Source: Paeniglutamicibacter sp. Y32M11 (lineage in GTDB: Bacteria; Actinomycetota; Actinomycetes; Actinomycetales; Micrococcaceae). From it: 64,000 nt of DNA. Positions 54,888-64,000 of the stretch are shown here, in pieces; within the stretch, counting starts at the first letter, position 1; every line of letters starts with the position of its first letter. The notes below the pieces were generated by a model. It did no database searches, was not told where the DNA came from, and worked only from the letters and a program-made list of their open reading frames with translations. The DNA lies in assembly GCF_019285735.1 (NCBI RefSeq), contig NZ_CP079107.1:3844001-3908000 (forward strand), in the 5' to 3' direction. The position numbers were made by a program, and so were the translations under genes.

Positions 54888-55910
54888 ATGACACCCGGTC
54901 CACCACCCATGAGATTACGGATGAAAATGAGCAAGAGCATAATCAAGAAGACCCTATACGGTGCCGTTGTCGCCGTCGTGGCAGGTCTGGCCCTGGTCAA
55001 TGCGGCAGCAAGTGGTGGTGAGTCGACCGCACGGTCAAAGCTCGTCCTCATGGCTCCGGCAGCCCCCGGCGGCGGGTGGGACGGTTTTGCCCGCGAGTCG
55101 CAGCAGGCCATGAAGTCCGGCAGCGTCGTTAACAACGCCCAGGTCGTCAACGTCCCGGGCGCCGGTGGAACCATCGGCTTGAGTCAATTTGTCCAGATGG
55201 AAGGCCGTCACGACATGATGATGGTCACCGGCGGCGTCATGGTTGGTGCCATTGAGCTCTCCAATTCCGAGACGACCTTCGAGGACATCGTTCCCATTGC
55301 CCGGCTCGCCGATGACTACGCGGTGCTGGTAGTTCCCGCCAAATCTGAATTCAAAACCCTCGATGACTTCACCAAGCAGTGGAAGGCGAATCCCGGAGGA
55401 ACATCAATCTCCGGCGGCTCGCTGGGGTCCATCGACCACCTACTGACCGGCCTGGTGGCACAAAAGATCGGCATTGATCCGATCAAAACCAACTACATCG
55501 CGTATTCCGGTGGCGGCGAGGCACTGACCTCGATGCTTTCCGGAACGACCGTCGGCGGAATGTCGGGCTACAACGAAGTAGCCGATCAAATCGAATCCGG
55601 CAGCCTGCGCGCCCTAGCAATTTCCTCGGAAGAGCGCCTGCCTGGTGTGGAGATCCCCACCTTCAAGGAACAAGGCGTCGACGCGGCGATGGCCAACTGG
55701 CGCGGTGTCGCCGCGGCGCCGGGCATCACCGAGGAGCAAAAGCAGGAATTTGTGGACATCGTTACCGAATACCGTCAGACCGAACACTGGCAGGATGCGC
55801 TGGAACGCAACAGCTGGACGGACAGCTTCATGACCGGTGACGAATTTGAAGAGTTCATTGACTCCGAGGTCGCCGTGACCAAGGAAATCGTGGAAGGGCT
55901 GGGACTGTGA
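54888..55910 (+). CDS. tctC: Tripartite tricarboxylate transporter substrate-binding protein
   Basis: A 340-residue extracytoplasmic binding protein of the Bug/TctC family with an N-terminal signal anchor (TLYGAVVAVVAGLALVNAAA) after a basic start. Family motifs: APAAPGGGWDGFAREXQQ-like segment, NVPGAGGTIGL, YIAYSGGGEALTSMLSG and LPGVEIPTFKEQG. It delivers a di- or tricarboxylate to TctAB. GAGGGA at 54875-54880 supports ATG 54888. Confidence 0.9.
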   Translation: MTPGPPPMRLRMKMSKSIIKKTLYGAVVAVVAGLALVNAAASGGESTARSKLVLMAPAAPGGGWDGFARESQQAMKSGSVVNNAQVVNVPGAGGTIGLSQFVQMEGRHDMMMVTGGVMVGAIELSNSETTFEDIVPIARLADDYAVLVVPAKSEFKTLDDFTKQWKANPGGTSISGGSLGSIDHLLTGLVAQKIGIDPIKTNYIAYSGGGEALTSMLSGTTVGGMSGYNEVADQIESGSLRALAISSEERLPGVEIPTFKEQGVDAAMANWRGVAAAPGITEEQKQEFVDIVTEYRQTEHWQDALERNSWTDSFMTGDEFEEFIDSEVAVTKEIVEGLGL

Positions 55911-56548
55911 AAACCACCAACGACTCCACCGCCACCGTGCGGAGCGCAGAGGATTACCCGGTGCGTATCACCGGCTTCTGGTCGGGTCGAAGCGAGCTAA
56001 TCGTCCCAGCGCTGGTCTTCGCGCTGGCCGGCTTCCTCACTTACGGAACTGCGACCATGGACGTGATGGGCACCAGTATTCCGGGACCACAGTTCTTCCC
56101 CACCATCGTTTGTGTGCTGCTGTTCGTCGTGGCGTCCATCCACACGGTGCAGATCCTGCGCACTCGTCGCTTCCCCCAGGAGGAAAGCGAAGGGCAGAAC
56201 GCCGACTTCTCCACCGACTTGCTCGGCGACCTCGCCGACACGGAGCGCAGCTCCATCTATGGGGCAACTGCTACGCCGTCGGCCACCGGAAAGCGGAAGG
56301 CCTACTCAGACTGGAAGACCCTGGGCATGACCGTGGGAGCAATTGCCGCGTTCATCGTGGCACTGCCCATACTGGGCTGGATACTCAGTGCAGCCGGCCT
56401 GTTCTGGGTCATCTGCCGCGCGTTGGGAAGCCGACGCCCGCTATTTGACCTCAGCGTCGCCATTCTCTTTTCCTCGGTCATTCAGCTGGCCTTTAATGCC
56501 GGGCTCGGTCTCAACCTGCCCTCAGGTTTCCTGGAAGGACTGATCTGA
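55907..56548 (+). CDS. tctB: Tripartite tricarboxylate transporter small membrane subunit
   Basis: A 213-residue membrane protein with four helices (about 27-46, 60-80, 145-165, 175-205) and a polar loop between helices 2 and 3 (about 55 residues, rich in charged residues), as in TctB. The ATG-type start (GTG) overlaps the tctC stop, and tctA follows after one base. Confidence 0.87.
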   Translation: MKTTNDSTATVRSAEDYPVRITGFWSGRSELIVPALVFALAGFLTYGTATMDVMGTSIPGPQFFPTIVCVLLFVVASIHTVQILRTRRFPQEESEGQNADFSTDLLGDLADTERSSIYGATATPSATGKRKAYSDWKTLGMTVGAIAAFIVALPILGWILSAAGLFWVICRALGSRRPLFDLSVAILFSSVIQLAFNAGLGLNLPSGFLEGLI

Positions 56549-56549
56549 C

Positions 56550-58094
56550 ATGGATTCTATTTCCCTGCTCATGGAGGGCTTCGCGCAGGCCCTAACACCC
56601 ATAAATCTCATGTGGGTGGTGATCGGTGCGATCCTCGGAACCGCCGTAGGCGTATTGCCCGGACTCGGTTCGGCCATGGCCGTCGCCTTGCTGCTTCCTA
56701 TTACCTTTTCGCTTGATCCGACCGCGGCATTCATCATGTTCGCCGGCGTCTACTTCGGTGGTCTTTTCGGGGATTCGACCTCCGGAATTCTGCTTAATAC
56801 ACCAGGCAATTCATCCGCCATCGCCTCCACCTTCGAGGGCCATCGCATGGCACTTGATGGCAGAGCGGCGAAGGCCCTGGCCACCGCGGCCATGGGAGCC
56901 TTCATCGGCGGTCTCATTGCCACCACGGTGGTCGTTTTCTTCGCCCCGGTACTCGTGAAGATGGCAACTGCATTCGGTCCCGCCGAATACTTCGCACTCG
57001 CGGTCTTCGCTTTCCTCGCCATTTCCTCGGTGGTCTCCGATTCCGTGGTCAAGGGCCTGATGTCCCTGGGCATAGGTCTGGTCCTCGCCCTGGTCGGCGT
57101 GGACGGCCCCTCCGGTACGCCCCGCTTCACCCTCGGTATGCCGCAGCTCTTCGACGGCATGTCCATCGTGGTGATCACCGTCGGGTTGCTGGCACTGGGT
57201 GAAGTCCTGCATATCGCCTCACGTATCCACCGCGACGGCACCGCCGTCCGCATTGAATCCAAGGGCCGCCCGCGCCTGGAACTCAGCGACATCCGTCGGG
57301 CCATGCCCGCTTGGTTGCGTGGCACCGCATTCGGCGTTCCCTTCGGCGTTATTCCCGCCGGCGGTTCCGAGGTTCCCACGTTCATGGCCTACGGCCTGGA
57401 AAAGAAGCTCGCTGCCCGCAATGGAGATACCGATTTTGGTAGCACCGGGTCAATCCGTGGTGTTGCTGCCCCGGAAGCCGCGGCGAATGCCACCGCCGGC
57501 ACCGCCATGGGAGCGCTTCTTGCTCTCGGCCTGCCTACCTCGGCAACCGCTGCCATCATGTTGGCCGCCTTCCAGCAGTATGGGATGCAGCCGGGCCCGT
57601 TGCTGTTCGAACGCAGCGGTCCAATGGTCTGGACGTTGCTCGCGTCACTGTTCATCGGTCTGGTTGTCCTGCTGGTCCTGAACATGCAGTTCGCTGTGCT
57701 CTGGGCCAAGCTGCTGCTCATCCCCCGTCATTACCTCTACGCGGGCATCGCGGTGCTCTCGGTACTGGGTGTCTACGCGATCAGTTCTTCTATCATCGAC
57801 CTGTGGATCTTGTTGGGCGTGGGCCTGCTGGGCTTCATGATGCGCCGCTACAAGTTCCCACTCGCACCGGTACTGATCGCGGTCATTCTTGGCCCGCTGG
57901 CCGAGACGGAATTGCGACGCGCACTCACGGTCTCCGAAGGCAACCTGTCGATCCTGATCGACAGCCCGGTCACCATGGTGCTCTACGGACTGCTGGCCAT
58001 TACTCTGGTGATCACCGCCATCCAGCACGTGCGTCACAGCAGGGCCGCTCGAAGCACGGCACCGAAATTCGATGCCGATAGGCTCGGCGTCTAG
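56550..58094 (+). CDS. tctA: Tripartite tricarboxylate transporter large membrane subunit
   Basis: A 514-residue permease with about eleven to twelve helices. The hallmark GVLPGLGSAMAVALLLPITFSLDPTAAFIMF and GGLFGDSTSGILLNTPGNSSAIASTFEG is present, along with PEAAANATAGTAMGALLALGLPTSATAAIML. It forms the substrate channel. Last gene of tctCBA, followed by a terminator. Confidence 0.92.
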   Translation: MDSISLLMEGFAQALTPINLMWVVIGAILGTAVGVLPGLGSAMAVALLLPITFSLDPTAAFIMFAGVYFGGLFGDSTSGILLNTPGNSSAIASTFEGHRMALDGRAAKALATAAMGAFIGGLIATTVVVFFAPVLVKMATAFGPAEYFALAVFAFLAISSVVSDSVVKGLMSLGIGLVLALVGVDGPSGTPRFTLGMPQLFDGMSIVVITVGLLALGEVLHIASRIHRDGTAVRIESKGRPRLELSDIRRAMPAWLRGTAFGVPFGVIPAGGSEVPTFMAYGLEKKLAARNGDTDFGSTGSIRGVAAPEAAANATAGTAMGALLALGLPTSATAAIMLAAFQQYGMQPGPLLFERSGPMVWTLLASLFIGLVVLLVLNMQFAVLWAKLLLIPRHYLYAGIAVLSVLGVYAISSSIIDLWILLGVGLLGFMMRRYKFPLAPVLIAVILGPLAETELRRALTVSEGNLSILIDSPVTMVLYGLLAITLVITAIQHVRHSRAARSTAPKFDADRLGV

Positions 58095-59097: not shown

Positions 59098-59841
59098 ATG
59101 GCATACGGCGAGCTCAACACCGCTTCCGGGGTACCCCTGTACCGCCAGATTAAAGAAATCTTGCGCCGCGAGATCACCGATGGCATTGCCGATCCACAAA
59201 AGCCGATGACCGAAGCCCTTCTACTCGAGCGCTTCGAGGTTAGCCGAGCACCCATCCGTCAGGCACTGGCCGAACTGGCATCCGAGGGTTACGTCTTCCG
59301 CAAACAGGGCAAAGGAACATTTCCGGTTACCGGCACGCGGGTCCAGCGGCCCGCAGATGTCCGCTCTGGAGCCCTCTACCAATACCTCTCCGACACCGGC
59401 CTTCACCCCACGGGTCAGGTCTCCGGTATCGAAAGAGTTCAGCCGCCCGAAAAGTTACGCGACCTCTTGGGGCTGGAGCCTCACGAACTACTCTTACATT
59501 TCACTCGATTGATCTCCGTCGAGAACCAGCCCTTGGTCGCGGCAGACGTCTACATCCGGGCACCGAAGGATTTCCACCCCACGGGTGCGGAACTTGAGGA
59601 ACGCGGCTCCGCGTTTGAATTGCTGGAAAAGCAGTTTGGGATTGCCCATATTCGCGCCGAGCATGAGGCTTGGGCGACAGCAGCAACGCCCGAACAGGCC
59701 GCCATCTTTGGGATTGCTGCAGGAAGTCCACTTCTGGTCATCGAGACCATTTTCTACACCACCGGCGATCTGCCGGCCGGTTGGCGTTCGGCCGTGCACC
59801 AGGCCGAGAACTTCAAGTACAAGTTCACCACCAACCGCTAA
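59098..59841 (+). CDS. GntR family (HutC/UTRA) regulator
   Basis: A 247-residue repressor: N-terminal winged helix (YRQIKEILRREITDGIADPQKPMTEALLLERFEVSRAPIRQALAELASEGYVFRKQGKGTFP) and a C-terminal UTRA effector domain (FTRLISVENQPLVAADVYI, ...FGIAAGSPLLVIETIFYT). It lies upstream of the phosphotriesterase-family cluster in the same direction and is the probable regulator of it. AAAGGA precedes the ATG. The frame is open further upstream but without homology. Confidence 0.88.
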   Translation: MAYGELNTASGVPLYRQIKEILRREITDGIADPQKPMTEALLLERFEVSRAPIRQALAELASEGYVFRKQGKGTFPVTGTRVQRPADVRSGALYQYLSDTGLHPTGQVSGIERVQPPEKLRDLLGLEPHELLLHFTRLISVENQPLVAADVYIRAPKDFHPTGAELEERGSAFELLEKQFGIAHIRAEHEAWATAATPEQAAIFGIAAGSPLLVIETIFYTTGDLPAGWRSAVHQAENFKYKFTTNR

Positions 59842-60157: not shown

Positions 60158-61138
60158 ATGATGGATACAACAGCACCCACCGCCACCGTCAATACGGTCC
60201 TCGGTCCAATTCCCGCCCATGAGCTCGGCGTCATTGCCGCGCACGAAGCGCTACTTTCGGTGGTTCCCGGAGCACAATTTGCTCCGGATATTTCCATGGA
60301 TCGAGCGGAGATCTTCGAGGCATTGGCCACCAAGCTCACTGCGTTCCGTGAGGCCGGAGGCAAGACCATCGTTGATTCCACCGGCATGTTCCACGGCCGT
60401 GACCTGCCGCTCTACGAGGCACTGTCGCGCAGTACCGGCGTGCACATCATTGCCTCCACCGGCATGGGACCGGAAGAGAATCTTGGTGGGTACTTCCTCA
60501 CCCCACAGACGAACCCGCCAACGCCGTGGCCGGCCGAAAAGTTCGCCGAACTCTTCTCGCAAGAAATCACCGAGGGCATGGTCATCCCGCGACTCGAGCG
60601 CCGCGCCGCTGCGGGCATGGTGACCACCACTGCCGCAACAACAGGCATGACCCCCACGGAAGAATCACTCTTCCGTGGCGCGGCACGGACCGCGGTGGCC
60701 ACCGGGGTCCCACTCACCATCCGATTCGGCGCCGAGGCGCTGACCGATCTAAACATCGTGCTGGACGAAAATCTACCCGCCGAGCGCGTACTCGTGGCCT
60801 CCCTCGATCGCACTGACGCCAAGGGTGCAGCCCTCGAGGTCGCCCGCCGCGGCGCCTACGTCGGACTTGACCACGTTGGCACCAATGATGACGCCAGCTA
60901 CCTCAACGACACCGAACGTTCAGCCCTGGTCATGGAACTGGTGGCCGCCGGCTTCGCCCAACAGATCATTCTCTCCTCCAATGCCATCGGTGTTGCCAAA
61001 GGTCAGGCCGACACCACGGTGGCCTTCGAACACGTACTGGGCACCTTCGTTCCGCAGTTGAAGAACCTCGGCCTCTCGGACGCCGATGCCGCCGCCCTGC
61101 TCGAATCGAATCCGCGCGAGCTGCTCACGGTGCGCTAA
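60158..61138 (+). CDS. Phosphotriesterase-family protein lacking most metal ligands (probable pseudoenzyme)
   Basis: A 326-residue TIM-barrel protein clearly paralogous to the next gene's product: NTVLGPIPAHELGVIAAHE, IVDSTGMFHGRDLPLYEAL and STGVHIIASTG match its relatives strongly. Of the six metal-site residues of the family only the first His (His29) remains; Ala31 replaces the second His, Thr156 the carbamylated Lys, Arg189 and Ser215 the next two His, and Asn275 the Asp, by my alignment. The fold core and length are normal and the frame is intact. It may be a structural or regulatory partner of the neighbour, or bind a different ligand. ATG 60158 with AAAGG eight bases before it; ATG 60161 is possible. 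55 bp separate it from the next gene. Confidence 0.78.
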   Translation: MMDTTAPTATVNTVLGPIPAHELGVIAAHEALLSVVPGAQFAPDISMDRAEIFEALATKLTAFREAGGKTIVDSTGMFHGRDLPLYEALSRSTGVHIIASTGMGPEENLGGYFLTPQTNPPTPWPAEKFAELFSQEITEGMVIPRLERRAAAGMVTTTAATTGMTPTEESLFRGAARTAVATGVPLTIRFGAEALTDLNIVLDENLPAERVLVASLDRTDAKGAALEVARRGAYVGLDHVGTNDDASYLNDTERSALVMELVAAGFAQQIILSSNAIGVAKGQADTTVAFEHVLGTFVPQLKNLGLSDADAAALLESNPRELLTVR

Positions 61139-61193
61139 GCCCCGCAGCCAGCCGCAAGAACCCAAAACTTTCTATTTTTCAAAGGTGACTGTT

Positions 61194-62147
61194 GTGTCAA
61201 AGGTAAACACGGTACTGGGAACCATCCCGGCCGAAGAATTGGGACTCGTAGCCATCCACGAGCACATCGGCTACGGCATGCCCGGATCCGAACTGGACTC
61301 CAAGTGGTGGAAGACCCCCGAGCAGCGCTACGCGGAGACCGTGCCGAAGCTGCGCGCATTCCACGAGTACGGTGGCGGCACCTTCGTGGATGCCACAGGC
61401 ATCTGCAACGGCCGAGACATCGACTACTACAAGTCGCTCTCCGCAAAGACTGGCGTGAACATCATCGCCTGCACCGGTTTTGTCGGTGGCGACACCGCGC
61501 TACCGCATTTCGCCCGCGCCTCGGTGGAATATCTGGCCGAGGTCTTCGTCCACGAAATCACCGTCGGCATCGGGGGTACCGGCTCAAAGGCCGGGGTCAT
61601 CAAGGTCGGAGTCTCCCGCGGCGGCAAAATGACGGAGCTGGATAAGCGCATCTACCGCGCAGCTGCCCGCGCCTCGGTCATCACCGGTGCGCCGATCCTG
61701 ACTCACCTGGCCATCGATGTGCAGCCGGCCATGGATATCTTCAACGACGAGCGTCTACCCCTCGACCGAGTCCTCTTCGGCCACGCCGATGACGGTTTCA
61801 ACGCGGATAACACCCCGGACCTGTACATCGCCGAACAGGGCGGCCGCGTCGGCTTCGACACCTTCGGCTACGAAACCGAGCTGGAAGATCCTCCGTTCTG
61901 GGCCCGTCCGCGCCAGGACCGCCTCGATCACTTCATGCGCTTCCTCAACGCCGGGAACATTGACAAGGTGCTCGCCGGCGTCGACGCCAACTGCTCACCC
62001 CTGGGCTGGCCCGGCGTCAAGGGCCACACCGTGAACTACATGTTCGAGGACCTCATCCCGGACCTGCGCAACGAGGGGCTGGGAGAAGCGGAGATCACCA
62101 AGATCTTCGTCACCAATCCTGCCCAGTTCCTCACGCTCCAAGCCTAG
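61194..62147 (+). CDS. Phosphotriesterase-family metal-dependent hydrolase (lactonase-like)
   Basis: A 317-residue amidohydrolase-superfamily enzyme with all six ligands of a binuclear centre: His22 and His24 (AIHEHIGYG), carbamylated Lys137 (IKVGVS), His171 (ILTHLA), His197 (FGHADD) and Asp264 (AGVDANCS). Many such proteins are lactonases rather than phosphotriesterases. It follows the degenerate paralogue and precedes a flavin hydroxylase and an alpha/beta hydrolase, so hydrolysis of a lactone or ester in an aromatic or cyclic-acid pathway is the likely task. GTG 61194 after AAAGG. Substrate unknown. Confidence 0.85.
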   Translation: MSKVNTVLGTIPAEELGLVAIHEHIGYGMPGSELDSKWWKTPEQRYAETVPKLRAFHEYGGGTFVDATGICNGRDIDYYKSLSAKTGVNIIACTGFVGGDTALPHFARASVEYLAEVFVHEITVGIGGTGSKAGVIKVGVSRGGKMTELDKRIYRAAARASVITGAPILTHLAIDVQPAMDIFNDERLPLDRVLFGHADDGFNADNTPDLYIAEQGGRVGFDTFGYETELEDPPFWARPRQDRLDHFMRFLNAGNIDKVLAGVDANCSPLGWPGVKGHTVNYMFEDLIPDLRNEGLGEAEITKIFVTNPAQFLTLQA

Positions 62148-62217: not shown

Positions 62218-63345
62218 ATGAAGGCAACGGATCTTCAAAACCTCAACATCGCGATCATCGGAGCCGGTTACGGCGGTGCCGCGTCGGCCAAAGCCCTAAG
62301 CCTGCTTGGAGCCACGGTCAACGTCTATGAACAGGCGAGCAAGATCGGCGAGGTCGGTGCCGGCATCGGTCTGCGTCCCTCGACCATGGATCGCTTCCGC
62401 CAGTGGGGCAGCTTCGAGGCCATCGCTGCCGTCAGCTCGCCGAGCGACACCTTCGAGATCCTCACGGCCGACAACAATCCGATCATGGAAGAAGCCTGGC
62501 CCGGGATCAACGACTTCGAGGTTGAAACCAAGACCCATCTGATCCACCGCGGAGACTTCATCGACGCACTGATCGGCGTCCTGCCCGAGGGCATGGTCCA
62601 CCTCGGCCACAAGTTGATAGAAATTCAGGATCAGGGCGCCACCTCCGTGCTCACCTTCGCCAACGGCACCGTGGTCGAGGCAGATCTGGTCATCGGTGCC
62701 GACGGCATCAAGTCGGTGGTGCGCAAGGCACTGTTTGGCGATAACCAGCCGGTCTTCTCCGGCGAGCACGCCTACCGCGCGGTCATTTCCATGGAGGAAG
62801 CCGCAGACATGATCAACGATGACAATCTGCGGATGTTCATTGGCCGTGGCACCAAGGTCTACCTTCTGCCATTGCGCCACCGCAACCAACTCTCCTTCGA
62901 CATCACCGCACTGTGCCCGGACTCCACCTGGGCCCCGGAGGTCTCCAAGGAACAGCTGTTGGCCACTGTGGCAGGTTTTGATGAGCGCATCGTGGCGATG
63001 GCGCGGAATTTGGACATGGACACCGTCTCCATCCGCGCCGTGTACGACATCAACCCGGTGGACAGCTGGCACACGGATTCGGTGGTGATCATGGGCGACG
63101 CCGCCCACGCCATGCTGCACCACCAGGGACAGGGTGCCAACTCGGCGATCATGGACGCCGGCGCTCTGGCCGACGCACTGCTTGAGGCCGATTCGGTCGC
63201 CGAAGCCCTGGCCCTGTTCCAGGCGACTCGCAAGCCGGTGACCGATGAGCTGCAGCGCATCTCGCGTTCGGGCTGGTCCGAGGACGAGCTCAATGAGGTC
63301 TTCCCCGGACAGAAACCAGCATCCCAGTCGAAAGTAGAGGTCTAA
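62218..63345 (+). CDS. FAD-dependent monooxygenase, group A (salicylate/hydroxybenzoate hydroxylase family)
   Basis: A 375-residue flavoprotein. Motifs in order: IAIIGAGYGGAASAKALSLLGATVNVYEQ (FAD and dinucleotide), GAGIGLRPSTMDRFRQWG, IGADGIKSVVRKALFG, and GDAAHAMLHHQGQGANSAIMDAGALADALLE. This is the salicylate/6-hydroxynicotinate/3-hydroxybenzoate hydroxylase type; the substrate is unknown. It is third in the cluster of hydrolases and immediately precedes an alpha/beta hydrolase gene. Confidence 0.86.
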   Translation: MKATDLQNLNIAIIGAGYGGAASAKALSLLGATVNVYEQASKIGEVGAGIGLRPSTMDRFRQWGSFEAIAAVSSPSDTFEILTADNNPIMEEAWPGINDFEVETKTHLIHRGDFIDALIGVLPEGMVHLGHKLIEIQDQGATSVLTFANGTVVEADLVIGADGIKSVVRKALFGDNQPVFSGEHAYRAVISMEEAADMINDDNLRMFIGRGTKVYLLPLRHRNQLSFDITALCPDSTWAPEVSKEQLLATVAGFDERIVAMARNLDMDTVSIRAVYDINPVDSWHTDSVVIMGDAAHAMLHHQGQGANSAIMDAGALADALLEADSVAEALALFQATRKPVTDELQRISRSGWSEDELNEVFPGQKPASQSKVEV

Positions 63346-63350
63346 GCTCC

Positions 63351-64000
63351 ATGTCTATTCATCCCGAAATTGCCAAGATCTTGGCCATGATCCCGGCACC
63401 CGACGGTTCGCCACTTGACCCGGTAGCGATGCGCGCCGGAGAGGCCGCGCACGTCGGCCCGCTTGCCGATCGCCTGCCGATGTTCAAGGTCGAAGACATC
63501 AACGCCGACACCGCAGCCGGCCAAGTGCCAGTGCGGATCTACACCCCCGATGCCGCCGACTCCCACGGGGTGCTGGTCTACGTCCACGGTGGAGCATTCT
63601 TCCTGGGTTCCTTGGACACCCACGACCACGTCGCCCGTGCCCTAGCCAAGGAAACCGGCCACAAGGTTATCTCGGTCGGCTACCGGCTGTCACCCGAGGC
63701 GCTCTTCCCGGCCGGCCTAGATGACTGCTACGCGGTACTGCGCTGGGTGGCGGAAAACGGCCAGAACCTCGGCTGGAACTCCCAGAACCTGGCGATTGCC
63801 GGGGACAGCTCCGGTGGAACGTTTGCCGCCGCCATCGCGGCCAAGGCGCACGACGACGAATTTACCGCCCTCACACACCAAATCCTCTTCTACCCCTCAC
63901 TGGATCTGGACTTCGATGTTGATCGCTACCCCTCGATGCGCGAAAACGCCGTCGGATACGGATTGGAGACCGCAGGCCTTGCGCCCTTCAATTCCTTCTA
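63351..64000 (+). CDS. Alpha/beta hydrolase, HSL/esterase family (cut by the window end)
   Basis: The first 216 or so residues of an esterase: the oxyanion motif HGGAFFLGSLDTHDH, the nucleophile elbow GDSSGGTFAAAIA and a following FYPSLDLDF are typical of hormone-sensitive lipase-type esterases. The catalytic Asp and His lie beyond the end of the window. It begins with ATG 63351, five bases after the hydroxylase stop. It probably cleaves an ester or lactone in the same pathway. Confidence 0.85.
   Translation, partial: MSIHPEIAKILAMIPAPDGSPLDPVAMRAGEAAHVGPLADRLPMFKVEDINADTAAGQVPVRIYTPDAADSHGVLVYVHGGAFFLGSLDTHDHVARALAKETGHKVISVGYRLSPEALFPAGLDDCYAVLRWVAENGQNLGWNSQNLAIAGDSSGGTFAAAIAAKAHDDEFTALTHQILFYPSLDLDFDVDRYPSMRENAVGYGLETAGLAPFNSF

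Follow-up and report, generated by a model that had tools for sequence, protein, structure and literature searches.

Two phosphotriesterase-family genes lie side by side near the end of the 64,000-nucleotide stretch of the Paeniglutamicibacter sp. Y32M11 genome analyzed here (hereafter, the window), and they raise the question of why a bacterium would keep, next to an apparently complete enzyme, a full-length paralog stripped of its metal site. The initial annotation of this region, made from a hand alignment, proposed that the upstream protein (hereafter pPTE) is a pseudoenzyme, possibly a partner in a hetero-oligomer or an allosteric or sensing subunit, whereas the downstream protein (PTE) has the intact binuclear center. 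Joint alignments, homologs from other genomes and the conserved adjacency of the two genes with the same lost ligands all agree with the pseudoenzyme reading. We consider it probable, although by no means certain, that pPTE serves PTE as a dedicated non-catalytic partner, probably within a heterodimer.

The gene pair

The pPTE gene encodes 326 amino acids when translated from the ATG at 60158, with the stop codon at 61136-61138; a second ATG follows at 60161, and residues of pPTE are numbered here from the latter. For PTE, the likeliest start is the GTG at 61194, which is preceded by AAAGG and agrees with the homolog from locus L004 that begins with MSKVNTVLG; with this start, the two genes, both on the forward strand, are separated by 55 bases. 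The PTE residues are numbered from the GTG at 61185, which places the six metal ligands at H25, H27, K140, H174, H200 and D267. Both proteins exceed the PF02126 cut-off of 22.4 bits, and for each of them this family is the sole Pfam match at E<=0.001. PTE combines the family profile score with a complete metal site and reaches no NCBIfam equivalog cut-off, whereas pPTE has the profile score and lacks the binuclear H-H-K-H-H-D site. The two proteins share 33% identity (E 1e-33), and a search of the window's own genome with pPTE yielded two matches only, pPTE itself and PTE.

Table 1 Features of the pPTE-PTE locus (window coordinates; residues of pPTE numbered from the ATG at 60161)
Feature	Coordinates	Strand	Evidence or conservation
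GntR/UTRA regulator upstream of pPTE	59098..59841	+	PF00392, PF07702
pPTE, phosphotriesterase-family protein, metal site stripped	60158..61138	+	PF02126, 117.9 bits
Codons of H28-E29-A30 in pPTE (HEH motif reduced to HEA)	60242..60250	+	Alignment, sequence
Beta3 loop of pPTE, GGYFLTPQTNPPTPW, residues 109-123	60485..60529	+	13/15 positions identical in 81 rows
RLERRAAAG block of pPTE, residues 144-152	60590..60616	+	R144, E146, R147, R148, A151 and G152 invariant
T155, in place of the bridging (carboxylated) Lys	60623..60625	+	Alignment
R188, in place of the third His	60722..60724	+	Alignment; Arg in 80/81 pPTE rows
S214, in place of the fourth His	60800..60802	+	Alignment
N274, in place of the metal Asp	60980..60982	+	Alignment
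Probable ribosome-binding site of PTE, AAAGG	61181..61185	+	Sequence
PTE, phosphotriesterase-family protein, intact H-H-K-H-H-D site	61194..62147	+	PF02126, 176.5 bits
FAD-dependent monooxygenase (FMO), next cluster gene	62218..63345	+	PF01494
Alpha/beta hydrolase (HSL type), continuing past the window end to L031:10275	63351..64000	+	PF07859

Loss of the metal site

At the six ligand columns of the joint alignment, PTE reads H-H-K-H-H-D and pPTE reads H-A-T-R-S-N, so that the assignment originally made by hand proved right at every position. The pPTE residues in these columns are H28, A30, T155, R188, S214 and N274. Misalignment that would hide intact ligands elsewhere in the protein was ruled out, the ligand motifs being in the same register in the MAFFT joint alignments, which included the partner and outgroups, and in HMMER alignments to solved structures.

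The same state is found throughout the homologs of pPTE. We compared 81 rows, namely a 76-row alignment, the Caballeronia protein described below (L036) and four proteins from the class sample, of which one (L120) repeats L112, leaving 80 distinct sequences; L033 and L035, being repeats of L043 and L064, are left out of the ligand counts. In all 81 rows the site is stripped, and never more than the first His is left: it is kept in 80 rows and lost in the Caballeronia protein, where H28 is replaced by Ser. The second His is absent from every row (Ala in 75, Ser in 5, Val in 1), as are the Lys (Ala in 53, Thr in 21, Val in 5, Met and Ser in 1 each), the fourth His and the metal Asp, and the third His gives way to Arg in 80 rows and to Cys in the remaining one. 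The full-length PTE partners, by contrast, have all six ligands in 73 of 73 cases, in line with the original description of the downstream protein. We further aligned 24 of the 26 other places of the phosphotriesterase family that were found; these proteins keep the ligands where covered (the N-terminus of L027 is too short for the first two), and 16 of them have the Lys, whereas in eight the Lys column holds Gly and the next residue is Glu.

Age of the loss and selection on pPTE

A tree was built from 65 sequences, comprising 21 pPTE, 20 PTE and the 24 other PTEs; the pPTE and PTE rows were every fourth alignment row plus L036, L117 and L122. The pPTE sequences form one clade (support 100/100), the PTE sequences another (100/99), and the two clades are sisters (99/98), although several long branches were flagged and the exact place of the pair among distant PTEs is less sure. 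Given these sister clades, and because the 24 other PTEs keep their ligands, the tree indicates that the loss of the metal site is derived and old, and it probably was a single event.

An obvious alternative is that pPTE is a duplicate in decay or neutral drift that persists only through its position in the operon. The lost site would fit such a fate, as would a median pairwise dN/dS slightly above that of the partner (0.28 over 1659 pairs for pPTE and 0.22 over 1955 pairs for PTE; Nei-Gojobori counts on unsaturated pairs only) and the existence of one visibly more eroded copy, L122 (G654 contig 233). Nevertheless, the pair is always found together, and the combination of intact frames, 57-76% identity between the pPTE of the window and the other 76 aligned rows, the dN/dS of 0.28 and 62 positions identical in all 81 rows rules out decay, to which we assign next to no probability. 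These sequence comparisons indicate that the stripped pPTE is a selected state, not a decaying copy, and the frame and length of the window's protein are intact, as had been noted at the outset.

Distribution of the pair

Scanning the genome collection with a three-sequence pPTE alignment yielded 76 loci, all from Actinomycetota by title, including Arthrobacter and its relatives, Kocuria, Streptomyces, Nocardia, Nonomuraea and others. A plasmid search added one close relative of pPTE, 57% identical, on plasmid p2 of the betaproteobacterium Caballeronia insecticola (NC_021295.1). In the public records, the pPTE of this plasmid is labeled phosphotriesterase and its PTE is labeled aryldialkylphosphatase. 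Together with the window, these searches gave 78 loci, two of which are from Nocardia carnea strains. In all 77 loci in which the contig continues past pPTE (that of L111 ends inside it), PTE is encoded directly downstream of pPTE and in the same orientation; four of these PTE copies (L061, L076, L084 and L102) are partial in a single frame, and because the scan patterns were built from pPTE, these loci test adjacency, not whether PTE occurs alone. For the 76 loci measured by script, the pPTE stop and the beginning of PTE homology are between -3 and 62 bases apart. Many of the counts in this analysis rest on draft genomes, and genes split over frames were counted by single open pieces only. 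In six draft genomes (L042, L061, L076, L077, L084 and L102), cluster genes are split over frames or partial, through either sequencing error or real decay.

That question was addressed in a sample of the class. Among its 394 genomes, PTE (E<=1e-60) was detected in five and pPTE (E<=1e-40) in the same five, side by side; the five include the window's own genome, and the protein of another (G196) is identical to that of Nocardia carnea L112. A PTE search of 396 genomes of the phylum detected it in G000 and G196 only, and of 148 relatives only G000, G018 and G021 were seen to have the close pair. No match to pPTE at E<=0.001 was detected in any of the 14 genomes of the same genus (G001-G014), so the cluster is patchy and was perhaps gained by transfer.

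Gene neighborhood

The pair belongs to a recurring cluster that consists of the genes for pPTE, PTE, FMO, an HSL esterase, an MBL hydrolase and a CocE-type hydrolase. Counted at >=40% identity within the sequenced flanks of each locus, FMO and HSL are each present in 76 of the 78 loci and MBL and CocE each in 75; two loci are short (L070 is a 4929-base contig and L111 is cut), and Arthrobacter castelli (L064) is without MBL and CocE genes even though its 11,961-base contig extends well past HSL. The MBL gene is on the other strand in nine loci, including that of the window. All genes of the cluster thus co-occur, and therefore co-occurrence alone cannot single out PTE as the partner of pPTE.

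The solved structures nearest to FMO are 6-hydroxynicotinate 3-monooxygenase and tropone 2-monooxygenase; the CocE-type hydrolase is nearest to cocaine esterase, the HSL protein matches esterases, and the MBL hydrolase has weak matches only. On the Caballeronia plasmid, genes for a P450 (nearest to CYP199), a ferredoxin and a reductase are located upstream of the pair on the same strand. Relatives of this P450 are present in the flanks of 49 of the 78 loci, of the ferredoxin reductase in 47 and of the ferredoxin in 41; none of the three was seen beside the window's pair. These relationships fit an oxidative pathway, and the cluster looks like one for the catabolism of an aromatic or heteroaromatic compound. 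Among the literature matches listed from open-access PMC, there is no described version of it.

Other genes around the pair are of more restricted occurrence. The GntR/UTRA regulator is present in 8 of the 78 loci. A TctCBA tripartite tricarboxylate transporter is encoded upstream in the window (54888-58094), without relatives at >=40% identity in the flanks of the other 77 loci. Past the window end, L031:11876-14930 contains extra genes between an MFS gene and the core MBL and CocE genes, which we take to be a second MBL-fold gene, an HD-domain-like gene and an AraC-like regulator and which are rare in other loci.

Conserved regions of pPTE

Most of the positions that never change in pPTE are located in the front part of the protein: of the 62 positions identical in all 81 rows, 57 fall within residues 1-185, a segment that makes up 57% of the protein and would hence be expected to hold 57% of the invariant positions. 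This lean depends in part on the eroded row L122, without which there are 78 invariant positions in the 80 rows, 63 of them within residues 1-185. The mean column entropy in the 76-row set follows the same trend (0.47 for residues 10-185 vs 0.94 for residues 186-325), and in PTE, too, the first half is the more conserved one (0.32 vs 0.57); therefore, the two proteins share some of this gradient. The most striking conserved block of pPTE is the beta3 loop, GGYFLTPQTNPPTPW, which is aligned with the loop after Y97/I98 in SsoPox.

In SsoPox, V27, Y97 and I98 are located along grooves where the two monomers meet, and both active sites are connected by a cavity in this interface (PMC7084321). A laboratory evolution series of PTE likewise showed loop movements coupled to the dimer interface (PMC7608688). 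When the pPTE profile was aligned to variants of SsoPox with HMMER, S33 of pPTE fell at V27 and G103/P104 at Y97/I98. These three residues are invariant in the 76-row alignment; the exceptions outside it are Cys in place of S33 in the Caballeronia protein and Met/Asp in place of G103/P104 in L122. Thus, judged from these alignments, the conserved front loops of pPTE appear to map to the dimer groove of its homologs, although they could also serve another partner or ligand. In the AlphaFold2 single-chain model, pPTE has alternating core strands and helices in a barrel-like arrangement (pLDDT 85.8, pTM 0.87), and PTE is likewise predicted to be barrel-like. Confidence is low at residues 35-45 and 111-120 of pPTE and at residues 31-41 and 271-278 of PTE; loops modeled in this way may require a partner for ordering, and a shallow alignment could give the same result.

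Conservation in and around the former metal site bears on a second alternative, namely that pPTE is a metal-free enzyme that uses the same barrel, with Arg188, Asp72 and other polar residues, to act on a neighboring step. Indeed, Arg occupies the place of the third His in 80 of the 81 rows, including L122; D72 and E29 are present in all 81, and H28 as well as the cavity-side non-ligand residues D216, D237 and S272, together with R217, in 80 each. D216 and D237, however, align with Asp residues of PTE and of solved phosphotriesterases and therefore may be inherited fold residues; the ligand positions other than that of Arg vary freely; and H28 is Ser in the Caballeronia protein. Moreover, in L122, the most eroded pPTE found, the beta6-beta7 region is shortened, the ligand columns read HVSRNG, D216 and R217 are missing, and D237 and S272, which otherwise never fail, are replaced, although the open frame, most front-half loops, the GGYFLTPQTNPPTPW block, an RVERRAAAG block and an intact neighboring PTE remain. 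The objection from lost residues rests mostly on this one row, and we regard a metal-free activity of pPTE as unlikely but worth keeping in mind.

Somewhat less probable still is a sensing or allosteric role, in which pPTE, as a subunit of PTE or of some other protein of the cluster, would bind a metabolite of the pathway. An anion could be bound by a barrel in which a near-invariant Arg stands in for a metal ligand, and descriptions of regulatory pseudoenzyme subunits exist for other families; nonetheless, no regulatory domain was seen in the Pfam search, and conservation leans to the front-half loops. Should the sensor be part of a heterodimer, this explanation would overlap with the one we prefer, a dedicated partner of PTE.

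Correlated evolution of pPTE and PTE

Distance matrices were compared for the 15 gene pairs among the six cluster genes in the 67 loci in which all six are complete. The distances of pPTE and PTE are correlated with r 0.87 and, given the other four genes, with a partial r of 0.69, in both cases the highest of the 15 pairs. In 500 bootstraps over loci, pPTE-PTE had the highest r in 493 and the highest partial r in 460, and removing four outlying loci leaves the top rank unchanged. PTE is again the best match to pPTE in each of two subsets, of 24 and 43 loci (r 0.89 and 0.88, respectively; comparisons of pPTE and of PTE only). Adjacency may raise the pPTE-PTE correlation by lowering recombination; PTE and FMO, which are neighbors too, reach r 0.42.

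Proposed role of pPTE

We propose that an ancient duplication gave rise to two sister proteins, pPTE and PTE. PTE has retained the binuclear metal center and is probably the catalytic member, presumably a metal-dependent hydrolase that acts on an ester, a lactone or an amide as part of oxidative catabolism. In pPTE, the metal site has been lost, most simply once, and the protein would have become a dedicated non-catalytic partner of PTE. The two most likely form a heterodimer through the loops after beta1 to beta3, where homodimers of the family pack near each other's active sites, and pPTE might either hold PTE in its active shape or complete the PTE substrate groove. Of this scheme, the analysis establishes the lost site, the selection on pPTE, the co-occurrence and the correlated evolution, whereas contact between the two proteins and its geometry, the inactivity of pPTE and the substrate are inferred. 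Co-occurrence, fixed gene order, correlated distances and the conservation of the groove-mapping loops lend indirect support to a hetero-oligomer, whereas the near-constant D216, D237, S272 and R188 count against a purely structural subunit because such a subunit would not need them.

A bolder version of the partner hypothesis can be put forward only tentatively. It holds that the two proteins form an obligate phosphotriesterase heterodimer, widespread and hitherto unrecognized, in which pPTE inserts its near-invariant GGYFLTPQTNPPTPW loop into the intersubunit groove and so completes the PTE active site, with Arg188 as a structural counter-charge that replaces the metal. If pPTE is indeed such a partner, the catalytic subunit expressed alone may look inactive. 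The pair also carries a warning for annotation because the stripped copy is labeled phosphotriesterase in at least one public record.

Comparison with known systems

Phosphotriesterases serve as a model of enzyme evolution and are studied as homodimers. The wider superfamily also includes the metal-independent LigI-type lactonases, which have an amidohydrolase-type barrel. With its predicted barrel and lost metal site, pPTE resembles LigI but differs from it in matching only PF02126 in Pfam. Within the phosphotriesterase family itself (PTE, SsoPox and other lactonases), the pair is at home by its PF02126 matches and predicted barrels, and PTE has the full ligand set; unlike the family, pPTE is without five of the six ligands. 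The family members described in the reports consulted, among them PMC7084321 and PMC7608688, are homodimers. Among the literature matches listed from open-access PMC, there is no described case of a phosphotriesterase with a paired inactive sister subunit.

Dihydroorotase belongs to the same superfamily as the phosphotriesterases. In Pseudomonas, an inactive dihydroorotase homolog (pDHO) is required for the activity of its partner, aspartate transcarbamoylase (ATCase), and a related fungal pDHO domain is said to lack the zinc ligands (PMC7053772). ATCase, however, is not a paralog of pDHO, whereas the conserved neighbor of pPTE is not an aspartate transcarbamoylase but its own sister, PTE. Another parallel is AibH1H2 of Rhodococcus, a heterodimer of the amidohydrolase superfamily in which AibH2 is catalytic and AibH1 is more likely structural (PMC12141560). 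The pair proposed here would resemble it in consisting of two proteins joined as a heterodimer with one catalytic subunit. It differs in that AibH2 is from another protein family (only PF02126 was reported for pPTE and PTE at E<=0.001) and in that, as described there, AibH1 still binds metal and the reaction is a hydroxylation (PMC12141560).

Non-catalytic subunits of related enzymes are thus already known, as exemplified by AibH1 and pDHO. A phosphotriesterase-family case in which the partner is the protein's own sister was not found among the literature matches listed. Carried by dozens of Actinomycetota and by one plasmid of a betaproteobacterium, the pPTE-PTE pair offers a ready test of the transition from a homomer to an obligate heteromer.
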